Source: Levilactobacillus suantsaii
GTDB taxonomy: Bacteria > Bacillota > Bacilli > Lactobacillales > Lactobacillaceae
NCBI RefSeq assembly: GCF_004115745.1
Contig: NZ_QXIL01000002.1
Location: 62,001-126,000, forward strand
Length of the DNA stretch: 64,000 bases
Direction of reading: 5' to 3'
Shown one piece after another: positions 3,734-60,763 of the stretch (position 1 is its first letter; every line of letters begins with the position of its first letter). A program made the position numbers and the translations under genes. The notes under the pieces are model-generated. The model saw only the letters and a program-made list of their open reading frames with translations. It was not told the origin of the DNA and ran no database searches.

Positions 3734-3995
3734 TAAAAAACGTCCCCTCAGACCCGTAGGCCTAAGAGGACGATCACATCGTGGTTCCACCCCTGTTCGT
3801 TAAACCATCACTGGTTTAACCTCAGTGAGTTGCAAGCAACTCCAGCGATAACGGGCTAACCCGAATCATCCTACTCAAATTCAGACGACCAACTCACAGA
3901 TGTGCTTCGCGTAACTGTCGACACCCTTTTCCATCATCCGGGCTTTCTAATGTCCGCACAGCCAGCTACTCTTCTGCTCAATGTTTTACTTCATT
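3734..3995 (-). promoter_or_regulatory. T-box riboswitch leader of the amino-acid ABC operon
   Basis: On the minus strand there is a T-box core, GGGTGGAACCACG at 3780-3792. An intrinsic terminator follows (GTCCTCTTAGGC pairing with the CTGAGGGGAC arm, T run 3735-3740). Upstream is a long structured region with Stem I hallmarks: AGTA in the 5' specifier-loop strand (about 3970) and a GGATGATGG distal-loop element (about 3925). Two clear hairpins precede the T-box (GTTAAACC/GGTTTAAC and GAGTTG/CAACTC). Uncharged tRNA binding should allow read-through. I could not fix the specifier codon, so the sensed amino acid is open. Confidence 0.85.
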
Positions 3996-12484: not shown

Positions 12485-12735
12485 CAAAAAAACTTCGTCC
12501 TAATTCAAAATTAGGACGAAGTCATTCGCGGTACCACCTAAATTGGGTAATTGCTACCCCACTTATCTTCGTTGTTAACGGAGTGTGCTCCGGTACCGAC
12601 TTACGTTTAATTTCAGTCGATCAGCTCACAAGTTACTTTCACCCGCCACGGTCGGCCACTTTCCAGCTCTCGTGACTCTCTGTCTCGACCGTAACGACTT
12701 ACTCGCTTGCTCACAGCTATTTACTCTGTAGTTTA
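12485..12735 (-). promoter_or_regulatory. T-box riboswitch leader of valS (specifier GTA, Val)
   Basis: The minus strand carries T-box core GGTGGTACCGCG (about 12517-12528). It ends in a terminator of CTTCGTCCTAATT pairing with AATTAGGACGAAG and a T run at 12485-12491. In Stem I, CAAG/CTTG and AGCT/AGCT arms close a specifier loop with AGTA on the 5' side and GAAAGTAA on the 3' side. This places GTA at 12634-12636, a valine codon agreeing with the downstream gene. ACGGTCG/CGACCGT forms the helix above. Confidence 0.92.
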
Positions 12736-25995: not shown

Positions 25996-26478
25996 ATGTT
26001 ACAACAATACAAGCACATTTTAGTCCCAGTTGATGGCTCCTACGAGGCGGAATTAGCCTTCAAAAAAGCCGTGGCCGTGGCTAAGCGTAACGATGCTGAT
26101 TTACATCTCGTTCACGTTGTCGATACCCGCGCTTTCCAAAACATCTCGAGCTTCGATACCAGTATGGTGGAACAAGTGACCGAGACGGCAAAGAAGACGC
26201 TCGATAAGTACATCTCAGATGCCAAGGCGGAAGGCCTCGAAAAAGTGGACTACGCCATCGAATACGGAGCGCCTAAGACCATCATTGCCCGCGACGTGCC
26301 GCGCGACAACGATACCGATTTGATCATGATTGGGGCCACCGGGTTAAACGCGGTGGAACGGCTCTTAATTGGATCCGTAACCGAATACGTGACTCGAACC
26401 GCTATTTGCGATGTGATTGTGGTCCGGACCGACTTGAACAACAAGCCGGCCAAAACCACCATTGCCAACCAAGAGTAA
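25996..26478 (+). CDS. Universal stress protein, UspA family
   Basis: A 160-residue Usp-fold protein. It opens with KHILVPVDGSYEAELAFKKAV and carries the ATP-binding pattern IMIGATGLNAVERLLIGSVTEYV, close to GxxGx9GSV. It probably binds ATP and acts in stress survival. GAGAGGTG precedes ATG. It is the last gene before a strong terminator. Confidence 0.93.
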   Translation: MLQQYKHILVPVDGSYEAELAFKKAVAVAKRNDADLHLVHVVDTRAFQNISSFDTSMVEQVTETAKKTLDKYISDAKAEGLEKVDYAIEYGAPKTIIARDVPRDNDTDLIMIGATGLNAVERLLIGSVTEYVTRTAICDVIVVRTDLNNKPAKTTIANQE

Positions 26479-26499: not shown

Positions 26500-26530
26500 G
26501 AGTCCGGGAGTCTTCCCGGGCTCTTTTTTT
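26500..26530 (+). terminator. Terminator of usp
   Basis: Hairpin GAGTCCGGGA/TCCCGGGCTC followed by seven T. Confidence 0.85.
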
Positions 26531-26623: not shown

Positions 26624-26684
26624 GAATAACTTAAAAAGTGCACCACCTTCAAATGGTTTTTCCATTTAAAGGCGGTGCACTTTA
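26624..26684. repeat. Dispersed palindromic repeat, copy 1
   Basis: An imperfect palindrome with arms AAAGTGCACC (26635-26644) and GGTGCACTTT (26674-26683) and an inner CAAATGG/CCATTT stem. It shares about 60 nt, including loop and a GAATAACTTAAAA flank, with 59587-59646. It lies between convergent genes (usp + and a small minus-strand gene) and likely acts as a bidirectional terminator. Confidence 0.8.
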
Positions 26685-26737
26685 ACGTCTTGTTTCAAAA
26701 TTTGTAAATTACTATCACACCGTTTAAGCGGACTGTC

Positions 26738-26944
26738 CTAGTTCCGCCTAAGAAGCCCAACGTCTACTAGGAGGTTGGCAACACAGAGCATAACGATCAA
26801 AACTAACCGACGCCCCAGTGTAAAATAGATGATGATCGAGTACACCCCCACTACGACCATATTCAACCAAATATTATTGACTATATTTAGATGGGTTCGA
26901 TAGAAATTATCTAAGTGTTCTGTTCCAAACCACATCGAGAACAC
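26738..26944 (-). CDS. Small hypothetical membrane protein
   Basis: A 68-residue frame with two predicted membrane helices (about residues 26-43 and 46-63) and a basic end. I do not recognise it. The start is uncertain: GTG 26944 has no good ribosome site, while AAGGGG lies about 50 nt further upstream in an open frame without a standard start codon. Downstream is palindromic repeat copy 1. It could be cotranscribed with the HTH-TPR regulator gene. Confidence 0.45.
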   Translation of the reverse strand: MFSMWFGTEHLDNFYRTHLNIVNNIWLNMVVVGVYSIIIYFTLGRRLVLIVMLCVANLLVDVGLLRRN

Positions 26945-27018: not shown

Positions 27019-27876
27019 CTAATCGGTTAAAATGGACCCCGTGGTCCGACCTAAACGCTGCTGTAGGGCTTCGTTGTGGGTCACCACAGCCAGCGTCTTA
27101 GCAATCTCCAGACTCTGCTTAGCCGCAGCCGTTGCCAACAAGGCTTGTTCCGCTTGCCCCTTCAATTCGTACAAAACATCGATTAAGTATAAGGAATCTT
27201 CTTGCTTTACCAACCGCAAAGCGGCATCCACGTTTTCGTTGACCAGTTGGGGTTGTTCCAATTGTGTGTATAATTGTGCAATCCGGTAACGGGCCCAAAT
27301 CAAGCGTTTGAACTCCCCTTCCTCATGCCACTCGTAACCATCTAAGTAAGCCATGGCTTCGCGTAAGTAATAGTGAACCTGGTCGTACTCCTTACGGTCA
27401 ACGTAGGCTAAGGCCATCCCTAAGTTGCTGACGATAGCGTACAGGTCCCATGGCATCCGGTAAGACCGGTGTAACAATAAGTTGAAGTGGAAAATCGCTT
27501 CGTCCGTCCGTTGCCGCGAGAAGATCTCCACGAAACCCCGGAAATAGTGGTAGCGTTCCCGGTCAAAGGAATTCTGGATGCTCGCCAAATCGATTTGGAC
27601 CAGAATCCGGTCGGCGCCATGAAAGTCGCCGAAGCGCAAGGCCCGCGATAAACGGCTGAATTGCTCGTCTAATCCGTTCCCCATTCCGGTCAAGACATCT
27701 TCAAACGAAATATTCAGTCGACGACAAATTTCCAAAATGATTTTGATACTTGGTACCTTATTCTTTTTCTCCATCAGACTAACCGTGGCCTGCGTGCAGA
27801 TGCCTTCAGCCAATTCCTGCTGCGATAAATTCTTTTGCTTGCGGTATTGTTTGAGCTTGTCCCCTAGTAAGCGCAT
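27019..27876 (-). CDS. HTH (XRE) - TPR transcriptional regulator
   Basis: A 285-residue protein. An N-terminal helix-turn-helix (LKQYRKQKNLSQQELAEGI, residues 8-26, with recognition helix near TQATVSLMEKK) is followed by about 210 residues of helical TPR-like repeats. This is the architecture of PlcR/Rgg-type regulators that bind signal peptides, though some such proteins sense other ligands. The AT-rich upstream region contains inverted TTACCGAATAT-like sequences that could be its operator. GAGGAG precedes the ATG. Confidence 0.85.
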   Translation of the reverse strand: MRLLGDKLKQYRKQKNLSQQELAEGICTQATVSLMEKKNKVPSIKIILEICRRLNISFEDVLTGMGNGLDEQFSRLSRALRFGDFHGADRILVQIDLASIQNSFDRERYHYFRGFVEIFSRQRTDEAIFHFNLLLHRSYRMPWDLYAIVSNLGMALAYVDRKEYDQVHYYLREAMAYLDGYEWHEEGEFKRLIWARYRIAQLYTQLEQPQLVNENVDAALRLVKQEDSLYLIDVLYELKGQAEQALLATAAAKQSLEIAKTLAVVTHNEALQQRLGRTTGSILTD

Positions 27877-57413: not shown

Positions 57414-58562
57414 TTATTCCGAGATGTCCGTTTGCCACGGTGTTGTTGTAATCTGCATCCGGCCATTCCGTTTAGAATGGTAGAGGTTGGCGTCCACCCG
57501 CTTGTAGAAGTCGAGTGGCGTCTGGTCCTTGACCGTCAGTTCGGAGACTCCCAGCGACAAAGTCACACTAATCTCCTGTCCATTATAAGCCACTGCTTGG
57601 TTGACGATACTGTTAAAGACTTGTTGGGCTACGGGATGCGCTTGACTGGCTGTATAATTAGGAAGAATAATGTTAAATTCTTCGCCTCCAGTTCGGTAAA
57701 GCGCAATCCCCGGGTCCAAACGTTTCAACGTCACGCTGACCGTCTTAGCCACGGCCCGCAACACCTCATCCCCGGCCAAATGCCCGTAGGTATCGTTCAC
57801 GTGCTTAAAATGGTCGATATCGAACATAATCATCGACAAATCGTGGTGCCGGGACACACTGCGGTAGAACTGCCGGCCGATGGCGCGGTCATAGGCGGCA
57901 TAATTTTGCACCTTGGTCAATGCATCCCAGTTTGCCGAACGAAAAAGCCGATCTTTGATGTGCCGATCCTGATTTTGAATCCGAAAGTACCCATACATCA
58001 ACACGGCAAGCAAGAAAAAGTTAATCAACTCTTCCATCACCGTTGACCAGGACAGATTAAGCCGTAGCTTAACGATTCCCCAAAGAATGGCACCATTGAT
58101 CATGGCCAACGCAATGTAGCGGGTAAACGGCCAGCGCCACATATGGACCCCTTGAATATAGGATTCCACGTAAAACGCCGCAAAAACGATCATGTACACC
58201 CACGACAGCGGCTGGGCAACGTTGCCGTTCAAAAACATAAAGCCGACTCCCAACACACAGATCATCCAGTACGGGACCCGTAATTGCAAGAAGTAAGCCG
58301 TAAACATTAAAATCAACAGTTGAAAATTAGTGAACGTCCAAGAAAGCTGGCTGTCTCGGACCAATAATTGGAGTGCAAAAACGGCAATAACTGCACACCC
58401 CGCCCCAATCCAGGTCTGCACCCGCTTGGTATTGACGGGGCGATTACGGGCTTCATACCAAGCTGTAGTCCAATTGTAGATTGACCAATAGAGTGTGATG
58501 ACCCCGAGGACAAAAAAGACACTTGTTATAAAGGGTGGCACTAACCACATTGACCAGGTCAT
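57414..58562 (-). CDS. Membrane-bound GGDEF-domain diguanylate cyclase
   Basis: A 382-residue protein. The N-terminal half has about six membrane helices; a GGDEF domain follows (about 215-375) with [24 protein letters not shown] and the active-site loop [12 protein letters not shown]. The RxxD inhibitory site five residues before GGEEF is missing, so product inhibition should be absent. The divergent gene encodes an EAL protein, giving a potential c-di-GMP synthesis and degradation pair. Confidence 0.9.
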   Translation of the reverse strand: [382 protein letters not shown]

Positions 58563-58846
58563 TTCATCAGACTCCCCGTGTATTGTCGTTCAATTTCTTA
58601 CCTCATTCACTGGCAATCAGCGCCCAACTGATTTTAAGGCCAAAATAGGTAAGTTTACTGATTACATTTACTATAAATCAATTCATATAATAAAGCCATA
58701 AAGAATTATATAACGGACTATATTAAATAGACCATTAGCTGACAATGAGCCTGTTTTCTAATCAAATCATCAGCCAGCTCTATGGTTTAACGGCCAAGTA
58801 CAGTATGATAGTTACTGAACAGCCATACAAGGAGGAATCAAGTCCC
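58563..58846. other. Divergent promoter region of the GGDEF and EAL genes
   Basis: An AT-rich stretch of 284 nt between the two starts. A strong ribosome site (AAGGAGGA) lies before the EAL start. No clear operator motif was found. Confidence 0.4.
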
Positions 58847-59521
58847 ATGTATCGTTACTTTATCCAACCGCAACTGGACGTTTCCAACCAATCACTGGTT
58901 GGTTACGAATTACTCATTCGTCAAAAGCGGGCCGGTCAATGGGTCCTCCCCCACGACTTTGGTGCCATTCCGATTGCCGTTCAGAGCGACTTGATTCGCC
59001 AGACCGCGCAGAAATTGCGCTTAAAGATTGGCTCGGTCTCATTCAACACGAACCAAGCCCAGTTTATCGATCCCCAGATTGCCCAAGCCATTTTAACGGC
59101 GCAACAACAAATCTATCCCGTGACCCTCGTCTTAGAAGTCACCGAGGAACCCACGACCGTAGCCGTCACCACCCAGCAGATTATCGATCAGGTACGCTTC
59201 TTTCACCAACGCGGCATCCAGCTCAGCCTCGATGACGTGGGGACCGGCCTCAACACTTACCCACACTTGAAACCAATCCTGGGCGCTGCCAGCGAGGTGA
59301 AGTTTGCCCTCCAGAACTTCCGGCAAGCTCACCGTGAAGCCGAAATTCCCACAGCTTTAAAATTTTGGCAAGAAGTCGCCACTCGTGAGCATTTACGCTT
59401 TATCTTAGAAGGTGTAGAAACCCCCGCCGAAGACGCCATGGCTAATCAATTGGGACTTAATCTCCGCCAGGGATGGTATTACGGCAAGCCCCATCTTTTC
59501 AAATTAACGTCTACTGATTAG
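58847..59521 (+). CDS. EAL-domain protein (putative c-di-GMP phosphodiesterase)
   Basis: A protein of 224 residues, essentially one EAL domain. The motif is YELLIRQ (EAL as ELL), then SVSFNTNQAQF, LVLEVTEEP, LSLDDVGTG, VKFALQ (usual KxD region without the Asp), ILEGVETPAED and RQGWYYGKP. Most metal and catalytic residues are present, but loop changes make activity uncertain. ATG 58847 is favoured over 58745 because of AAGGAGGA 10 nt upstream. Confidence 0.85.
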   Translation: MYRYFIQPQLDVSNQSLVGYELLIRQKRAGQWVLPHDFGAIPIAVQSDLIRQTAQKLRLKIGSVSFNTNQAQFIDPQIAQAILTAQQQIYPVTLVLEVTEEPTTVAVTTQQIIDQVRFFHQRGIQLSLDDVGTGLNTYPHLKPILGAASEVKFALQNFRQAHREAEIPTALKFWQEVATREHLRFILEGVETPAEDAMANQLGLNLRQGWYYGKPHLFKLTSTD

Positions 59522-59586
59522 ACTGTAAACCAAGCGTCCCCCCCTAATTGACTTTGACCGTCCGTTTTGGCCCCCTTGTAGACAAC

Positions 59587-59646
59587 GAATAACTTAAAAG
59601 TGCACCGCCTTCAAATGGATCTTCCATTTAAAAGCGGTGCACTTTC
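59587..59646. repeat. Dispersed palindromic repeat, copy 2
   Basis: Arms AAAGTGCACCGC (59597-59608) and GCGGTGCACTTT (59634-59645) with inner CAAATGGA/TCCATTT. It matches copy 1 at 26624-26684 in arms, loop and the GAATAACTTAAAA flank. It lies between the convergent EAL and LCP genes and would terminate both. Confidence 0.8.
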
Positions 59647-59683
59647 GTATTTAGTCTAAACTCATTAACTTTTTAGTAGCTTG

Positions 59684-60763
59684 TTATTGGCCACCACCTG
59701 GGCCGCCGGTACCTCCAGCCCCCCCAGTGGTGCCGGTACCAGTACTATTGCCTGGTGAGATAGCGGTCGACCCCGTCGTCGTAGTGGTATCGGCGGTGGT
59801 CATAATAGCGATTTTTCCTGTTTTGGCATAGGCCAAGCTAAGACCGTTACGAATATAGTTCGTGACCCGTTGGAGTTCCGATTTCGTCGCAACTTCCATA
59901 CTTTGCCCGTTCATCGTTTGACTGCTTCCCTGGATATGGGTCGTCTTGATGTGCTTAAGCGCCGTACGGTAATTCTGCGCCAACGCCGTTAAATCATTAA
60001 AGGTCAAATCAGTTTGCGTTTGCTTCGACAGCGATTGGATAAACGATTCGTTCAGTAGTGTCGATACTGATTTACTTTGCTTCAACAGGGCCATGATGAC
60101 CTTTCGTTGCCGCGTCTGCCGACCATAATCCCCTTGCGGATCATCGTCACGCATCCGGGCATAAGCCAACGCTTTCTTCCCGTTCATGTGGGTCTTGACA
60201 CCCTTTTTAAAGGTGTACCCGCCATAACTAAAGCTCAAAGTTGGCTTCAAAGTCACACCACCGACTTCGTTAATGATTTTTTTCATTCCGCCCATGTTGA
60301 TAATGGCGTAGAAATCAATGGGGACGTTCAGCATCTTTTGGACCGTGGTAATGGCGGTCTTGGACTTGCCCCAAGCGTACGCCGCATTCAATTTAGCGGG
60401 TGACTGGCTGGTGTACCCCGGAATATTGACCGCTAAGTCACGGGGCAAACTGGTCATCGTGGTCTTCTTGGTCTTAGGGTTGATGGTCACCACCATCATA
60501 CTATCGGTTCGGCCCTGAAAGTTTCGGCCCAACGCACCGGTGTCGGTCCCCATCAACAAAATCGAAATCGGCTTTTTCTTCGCCAATTGTTGACTCACGT
60601 TCCGCAGTTTAGTAACGCCCGACGCCTTATACGACTTCTTGACGGAACTTTGCAAGTTTTGATATTGATGGGCGCCGTACGCGACACCACCCACGACCAG
60701 CACCAAGATGAGTGCTAAAAATGTTTTGAGCCAGGGGTGTCGATTTCTTCGTCTACGTTGCAT
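59684..60763 (-). CDS. LytR-CpsA-Psr (LCP) family glycopolymer transferase
   Basis: A 359-residue membrane-anchored protein that attaches teichoic acids or capsule to peptidoglycan. Basic start, one membrane helix (about 14-31), then the LCP domain with ILLMGTDTGALGRNFQGRTDSMMVV, TSLPRDLAVNIPG, NMGGMKKIINEVGGV and RMRDDDPQGDYGRQTRQRKVI. The last 40 residues form a low-complexity Thr, Ser and Gly-rich tail ending in GGPGGGQ. A consensus promoter lies at 60934-60962. Confidence 0.92.
   Translation of the reverse strand: MQRRRRNRHPWLKTFLALILVLVVGGVAYGAHQYQNLQSSVKKSYKASGVTKLRNVSQQLAKKKPISILLMGTDTGALGRNFQGRTDSMMVVTINPKTKKTTMTSLPRDLAVNIPGYTSQSPAKLNAAYAWGKSKTAITTVQKMLNVPIDFYAIINMGGMKKIINEVGGVTLKPTLSFSYGGYTFKKGVKTHMNGKKALAYARMRDDDPQGDYGRQTRQRKVIMALLKQSKSVSTLLNESFIQSLSKQTQTDLTFNDLTALAQNYRTALKHIKTTHIQGSSQTMNGQSMEVATKSELQRVTNYIRNGLSLAYAKTGKIAIMTTADTTTTTGSTAISPGNSTGTGTTGGAGGTGGPGGGQ

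Follow-up and report, generated by a model that had tools for sequence, protein, structure and literature searches.

Two palindromic hairpins of Levilactobacillus suantsaii as probable parts of a small mobile-element family at gene 3' ends in Lactobacillales

Results

Two palindromes in the window

The window, i.e. the whole stretch of DNA analysed here, comprises 64,000 nucleotides of Levilactobacillus suantsaii (contig NZ_QXIL01000002.1, positions 62,001 to 126,000 of the forward strand) and carries two long palindromes, 33 kb apart. The genes beside them are named by the look of their sequences, as uspA-like, EAL-like and LCP-like. The features, with genes and ORFs from the ORF table, are as follows.

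25996-26478, plus strand: uspA-like gene left of copy 1
26500-26523, plus strand: separate terminator-like site behind the uspA-like gene (terminator scan)
26624-26693, plus strand: what can be recognised of the element, copy 1 (3' module only; 91% match to consensus positions 48-117 of 123)
about 26625-26636, minus strand: U-tract behind the palindrome, copy 1
26635-26683, no strand assigned: palindromic hairpin, copy 1 (sequence read, inverted-repeat search and fold test)
26637-26681, minus strand: intrinsic-terminator-like site, copy 1 (tail TTTTAAGTTA; fold -37.6 kcal/mol, z -9.2)
26738-26944, minus strand: 68-aa ORF right of copy 1, which may not be a gene
27019-27876, minus strand: next sizeable ORF right of copy 1
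58745-59521, plus strand: EAL-like gene left of copy 2
59546-59656, plus strand: element, copy 2 (consensus positions 7-118 of 123, 82%; 5' module, TTGACTTTGACCGTCCGTTTTGG..., and 3' palindrome)
about 59588-59598, minus strand: U-tract behind the palindrome, copy 2
59597-59645, no strand assigned: palindromic hairpin, copy 2 (at least 20 pairs on the minus strand)
59599-59643, minus strand: intrinsic-terminator-like site, copy 2 (tail TTTAAGTTAT; fold -37.4 kcal/mol, z -8.5)
59684-60763, minus strand: LCP-like gene on the right of copy 2 (38 nt between its stop codon and the hairpin)

In copy 1, two arms of 22 nt each (26635-26656 and 26662-26683), 91% complementary, enclose a loop of 5 nt. 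Over the two copies and both strands the palindromes fold with z scores of -6.4 to -9.2, and none of 200 shuffles folds equally well. All four exact matches to the core AAAGTGCACC in the window fall within the two palindromes; with one mismatch allowed, the window holds 5 matches against 4.6 expected, and the short core alone is therefore not significant. The same GAATAACTTAAAA lies upstream of the palindrome at both copies and the repeated unit extends beyond it, at copy 2 over 59546-59656; copy 1 has no recognisable 5' module, which is either eroded or replaced. A reading of the window from sequence alone had described the two palindromes as alike and as lying between convergent genes, and both observations stand: copy 1 as a query recovers copy 2 in its own genome at E = 1.3e-17, and the palindromes lie between the uspA-like gene (+) and minus-strand ORFs at copy 1, and between the EAL-like gene (+) and the LCP-like gene (-) at copy 2.

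The same reading had proposed a bidirectional terminator, of which one direction is retained. On the minus strand, both window copies show the arrangement of an intrinsic terminator, a GC-containing stem followed by a U-tract, and were called as such by a consensus scan that reads sequence and is no measure of function; the scan called the plus-strand palindrome at neither copy, and the plus-strand sequence after it reads TTTAACG or TTTCG. The window palindrome may thus be the intrinsic terminator of the right-hand minus-strand gene, whose transcripts it would end, and at most weakly that of the left-hand gene.

Two further observations concern the window itself. A GGDEF-like ORF (-) and the EAL-like ORF (+) stand divergently at 57414-59521, adjoining copy 2, and by the look of their sequences are presumably cyclic-di-GMP genes. 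Two T-box leaders (Rfam RF00230) at 3763-3990 and 12509-12723, both on the minus strand, score at the gathering threshold.

Fifteen copies in the genome

A genome-wide search with 64-nt, 123-nt and 77-nt queries gives 15 copies rather than two, as expected of the dispersed family that had been suggested from the window. This excludes the first half of the condition under which that suggestion was to be given up, a total of two copies genome-wide. Fourteen were found with hairpin queries, and the fifteenth (C66:22930-23044) with the 123-nt query only; it too reads as a palindromic copy. When the copies are aligned in one orientation, the palindrome occupies the 3' side of a longer unit of about 110 nt, whose majority line is AGAGNGNAACAAACTGACTTTTGGCGCACGTTTCGGCACCATTATGGACACCGAATAACTT-(palindrome)-TAGTGTTTTGTCCCAGA. 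Most copies are also alike over about 50-60 nt before the hairpin, in a 5' module (GGGACAAA...CACGTTTC) that is not palindromic, and the palindrome itself shows changes on both sides at 5 of 18 consensus pairs. The MITE-like character that had also been suggested is borne out by these 15 intergenic, palindromic copies, which, to judge by their length, have no coding capacity.

The right-hand ORF points toward the element in all 15 copies, its stop codon lying 22-69 nt from the hairpin in 14 and 241 nt away in one. The left-hand ORF does so in 12 of 15, which gives a convergent placement in 12 of 15, counted on a table of ORFs of at least 60 aa, some of which may not be genes (left-hand ORFs of 63 and 85 aa are included). 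In blocks of relatives, 66 gaps are convergent among the 524 that measure at least 60 nt (Fisher p = 1e-8 against 12 of 15), a comparison across two tables with different ORF cut-offs and different genomes. The mismatches of 14 own-genome palindromes, read on the forward strand, are 16 A-C against 10 G-U; this bias is not significant (p = 0.33), and therefore selection for a minus-strand RNA of these palindromes is not proven.

Two other identities were considered and dropped. As an uptake sequence, AAAGTGCACC is ill placed, as 16 of its 25 genomic core matches form inverted pairs 12-29 nt apart. Integron attC sites are bounded by RYYYAAC and GTTRRRY boxes; GTTAAGC fits the right box and CATTAAC, by eye, fails the left one.

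A parent family with a long hairpin

Sought in relatives, as the sequence-only reading had suggested for its core, the palindrome is present in one of 35 genus genomes, its own. The 5' module has matches in 13 of 23 genus relatives, where it is part of an element of about 168 nt. The intact element reads GAGAGTGGGACAAAAGGCGGTTAG-xxxxx-TGAGCATTAACG-(variable hairpin)-GGGTTAAGCGGA-yyyyy-CTGCCTTTTGGCGCACGTTTCGG, followed by a short spacer and, in many copies, by a hairpin such as GAGTCTGAGACTTTTGTCCCAGACTC; the skeleton of the family is GAGAGTG..TTAG..TGAGCATTAACG..GGTTAAGCGGA..CACGTTTC. From its start to the end of the terminator the element measures 166-169 nt in the nine of 25 copies in which a regular expression located the GTCCCAGNC-like 3' end. 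By eye, the 5' GAGNNTGGGACAAAAG is the inverse of the 3' CTTTTGTCCCAGNCTC in intact copies, and this match is eroded in many.

A covariance model of the first 125 positions, i.e. of the long hairpin, has 97.1% standard pairs, with changes on both sides at 16 of 39 pairs as opposed to at most 5 in slid controls. Its covariation score is 0.342, whereas shuffles give 0.137 and none of 500 reaches the real score. The model matches all 35 genus genomes at E <= 0.001, with 1 to 100 matches each among the best 100 candidates at most: one each in the own genome, in G006 (72% complete) and in G016, five in G044 and 12 to 100 in the other 31. These are counts of matches and not of copies, some being the reverse strand of the same copy; in three close relatives, 36, 44 and 50 matches at E <= 1e-6 correspond to 35, 39 and 44 places.

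Across the order, a search at E <= 1e-5 with strict filters matched 20 of 198 genomes (the own genome included), in 14 of 55 genera and five families. The copies read from four of these families (f1, f2, f5 and f7) keep the skeleton, several with a following hairpin of the GAGGCTGGGA..TCCCAGCCTC type, and those read from f9 keep the hairpin core and have no CACGTTTC end. Database matches include three records of Pediococcus damnosus plasmids (73.5% identical across 58% of the query) and Aerococcus tenax (79.1% identical across 94%); in the plasmid record that was opened, the element lies just behind an ABC-transporter gene on the same strand. Tandem arrangements were seen in two genomes of other taxa: near-identical units at L311 (G197), and units at L317 (G198) in which the CACGTTT of one runs into the AGAGTG of the next.

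Scans of the window, of 16 loci and of 20 loci gave no Rfam 15 match to the element at gathering score; permissive matches over or beside copies, to OrzO-P, ctRNA, group II-D5 intron, T-box and microRNA models, all stay below that score. Two narrow searches, of viral contigs with the exact genus-type skeleton pattern and of phage records with one element copy, returned no match. Among the literature matches listed, which cover few subscription journals, there is no description of a Lactobacillales-wide element of this kind, and a search by oligonucleotide listed unrelated papers only.

Placement behind genes and folding of the sense strand

Placement was studied in three close relatives (G012, G021 and G043), from which 118 model hits were kept (35, 39 and 44) after reverse-strand duplicates had been dropped. 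Copies were oriented and assigned to types A and B by our own ORF caller and motif rules, which misfiled a few (e.g. G043:C1:510441, a type A copy filed as B), and copies at orthologous sites of the three species make the following counts non-independent. Among the 41 scored type A copies, the downstream gene points toward the element in 28, both neighbours lie on the strand of the element in 12, and 20 of 40 have a CTGGG..CCCAG-like motif in the next 90 nt. Of the 76 type B copies that were scored (one more lies at a contig edge), 72 follow a gene of their own orientation, and in 41 of those the element begins within -3 to +7 nt of that gene's stop codon. Twenty-seven start at exactly -3, so that the first three bases of the element are the TAG stop codon itself. 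Others begin right after the T-run of a terminator. Divergent gaps hold 3 of the 117 scored copies of both types, compared with 120 divergent gaps among 552 in the background. Sister-species blocks contain a counterpart of 73 of the 77 type B copies and of 21 of the 41 in type A, and type B sequences at orthologous sites differ between sister species.

Type B copies may stand in tandem (L170, L200, L209 and L231, the last behind a gene that we read as rpsN). At these four loci and at L191 and L248, tandem hairpin units of about 130-140 nt lie behind stop codons or in gaps, and both the number of units and the stem sequence vary between close species while the flanks stay similar. At L183, L255 and L265, in three species, a type B element starts with the TAG stop of a gene with an acidic C-terminus that looks like rpoE, and the three element sequences differ.

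In 39 of 40 type A copies and all 75 of type B, the sense strand has a more favourable fold than the complementary strand (114 of 115; 3 of the 118 were too short and were dropped), with medians of -61.3 against -47.4 kcal/mol for type A and -68.8 against -55.5 kcal/mol for type B, in copies that were found by a sense-strand model and oriented by motifs rather than by energy. The inner pairs of the training set hold 35 G-U against 5 A-C combinations. Both observations argue for selection, past or present, on the transcribed RNA, with the caveat that model and structure alike were built on the sense strand.

Filled and empty sites

In G043, eleven sites for which the sister blocks showed no counterpart were picked by eye, and six of them were examined. 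Four (S4, S5, S6 and S11) are empty in G012 and/or G021, with flanks 92.7-97.8% identical. At one of the other two, S3, G012 carries the same element as G043 minus the long hairpin, so that long and shortened forms can occupy one site; S9 had no ortholog pair. Since one site of six held a shortened copy, absence of a counterpart in the blocks is no proof of true absence.

In all four empty alleles, an inverted repeat with A- and T-rich flanks, by its looks a bidirectional terminator, stands where the filled allele has the element and its own hairpin. The outer stem bases are apparently kept at S11 (AAAACG/CGTTTTGTTTAC) and at S4 (AAAATG/CATTTT), and there is no clear stem remnant at S5 and S6. 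No target-site duplication is evident by eye at the four resolved sites. We infer that the direction was gain in G043 rather than loss in the others; G012 retains TAGAGTGG at S11, perhaps the scar of a lost copy. At S6, where G021 is empty and G043 filled, G012 has an unrelated insert of about 540 nt (L272) with a small ORF that starts like a secreted protein. In 949 kb of sequence surrounding copies, a strict motif search found no two element ends that would form a pair at a distance of 400-3500 nt.

The comparison of flanks at empty sites, which the sequence-only reading had envisaged, thus succeeded in relatives, with four filled and empty pairs, and resolved no empty site for the copies of the own genome, where the intergenic DNA at the uspA site does not align with that of relatives.

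The compact form of this genome

The long hairpin is nearly absent from the own copies, and the AAAGTGCACC palindrome occupies the place of the GAGNCTGGGAC/GTCCCAGNC hairpin of the relatives. The covariance model finds no match in the window. When it is run on the 15 own copies, six have any match at E <= 10, four of them below 0.01 and two weak (E 0.37 and 0.52), and nine have none; the best (L012, 45 bits, E = 5.5e-9) is a shortened hairpin with much missing, and L024, L030 and L016 score 20-23 bits. Judged by sequence, the own-genome form is an internally shortened derivative of the element of about 168 nt, absent from the related species examined. In 34 of 35 genus genomes the uspA-like protein has a single match at E <= 1e-60, and in the remaining one it has two; among the 30 loci examined of these 36 matches, none but that of the own genome has the palindrome. 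Within 150 nt of the end of the uspA-like gene, the model has a match in G013 (33.1 bits) and in G004 (17.6 bits, E = 0.066, visible by eye); the other 27 relatives have no model match near that gene end, the matches at L074, L082 and L083 lying elsewhere.

Discussion

We consider it probable that the window palindromes form the terminator module at the 3' end of a small mobile element, non-coding and non-autonomous, that has settled behind genes and whose copies spread in trans. The intact member of about 168 nt would consist of a long bulged hairpin and a short hairpin resembling an intrinsic terminator, the long hairpin often starting at, or just behind, the stop codon or the terminator of a neighbouring gene. 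Insertion would have replaced the native terminator hairpin, this being likelier than loss of the element with the hairpin restored, and an enzyme acting in trans may have transposed the copies. Such an element would explain the likeness of arms, loop and flanks in two hairpins that lie 33 kb from each other.

The strongest alternative, which we regard as possible although clearly less likely, is that the family is a functional host 3'-UTR RNA, e.g. an mRNA stabiliser or a protein-binding RNA, multiplied by its usefulness and mobile only incidentally. Strong covariation and the better folding of the sense strand in 114 of 115 copies are what such an RNA would show, as is the position of type B copies: 72 of 76 share their strand with the upstream gene, 41 of these 72 start near its stop codon (27 at -3), and the sites are mostly common to the species (73 of 77 with a counterpart). 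However, for 20 of 41 type A copies (4 of 77 for type B) the sister blocks show no counterpart, four empty alleles are resolved, the number of matches ranges from 1 to 100 between species (among the best 100 candidates at most), and the own genome has nearly lost the long hairpin, all of which speak against this alternative.

It is unlikely that ordinary terminators alone, arisen or duplicated as such and kept alike by gene conversion, account for the hairpins with no mobile element involved. Their placement behind genes in 15 of 15 copies, their terminator-like score, and the fact that neither a transposase nor a target-site duplication was seen agree with that explanation; but the likeness reaches about 50-60 nt into the non-palindromic 5' module in most copies, a conserved skeleton recurs in 14 genera with dozens of matches in most genus genomes, and sister species hold filled and empty alleles of the same sites. 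A further proposal, rather doubtful at present, concerns the manner of spread and is SINE-like: an RNA produced by read-through of the stop codon and ending at the element's own terminator would be reverse-transcribed in trans into terminators and stop-proximal sites, for which the enzyme of a terminator-seeking group IIC intron would be one candidate. This would account for the sense-strand structure, the lack of evident target-site duplications, the terminator targets and the 3' end at a terminator. Finally, a REP/BIME-type repeat moved by a REP-associated tyrosine transposase, the kind of repeat to which the short, dispersed and intergenic palindrome had also been likened, is highly improbable, since only one of 15 copies (copy 1, with CGTC) has a GTAG/CGTC tag or its inverse next to the hairpin, the palindrome measures 49 bp against the 20-40 bp of the REP/REPIN criterion, and the unit, of about 110-168 nt and two modules, is too long.

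If the mobile-element explanation is right, one family of tiny elements has rewritten the 3' ends of genes in many Lactobacillales: in most genomes of the genus it takes the place of native terminators, and supplies structured 3' UTRs, at dozens of positions. The way in which non-autonomous elements locate terminators could then be tested directly on this family. It also calls for caution, as likeness between the terminators of different genes can be the likeness of a mobile element.

Comparison with known systems

Group IIC introns, which insert at intrinsic terminators (PMC4424553), resemble the family in their preference for terminator targets and in their RNA-level structure. They differ from it in that our element has no group II intron match at Rfam gathering score and is about 168 nt long, and therefore has no room for a reverse transcriptase. 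The pneumococcal BOX, RUP and SPRITE repeats are small, structured and intergenic, with SPRITE terminator-like (PMC10969869; for RUP also PMC2229807). The likeness to our element, in being small structured intergenic repeats, is one of description. The skeleton given above is not known from BOX, RUP or SPRITE repeats.

The element behaves like a MITE standing in for terminators, and among named kinds EFAR of Enterococcus faecalis appears closest to it. EFAR reportedly inserts into stem-loops, of which the inner part is lost while the outer stem bases remain (Venditti et al. 2007). In our family, the hairpin is lost at all four resolved sites, and at two of them, S4 and S11, the outer bases of the stem appear to have survived. 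The window copies differ from EFAR in being a compact derivative with another 3' hairpin, present in 1 of 35 genus genomes, and to our knowledge tandem arrays that start at stop codons, as in type B, have no parallel in EFAR. EFAR is named among MITEs 'in Enterococci' (PMC3733652), and Efa-1 is described as 163 nt long, with 65 copies and 'a pair of adjacent SLSs' (PMC2267715). By description, our family shares with EFAR and Efa-1 its size, its two adjacent stem-loops, its intergenic position and its palindromic nature. As no target-site duplication was seen at the four resolved sites and no parent IS was found in 949 kb of blocks, we do not call the family a classical MITE, and file it as EFAR-like rather than as a member of EFAR.
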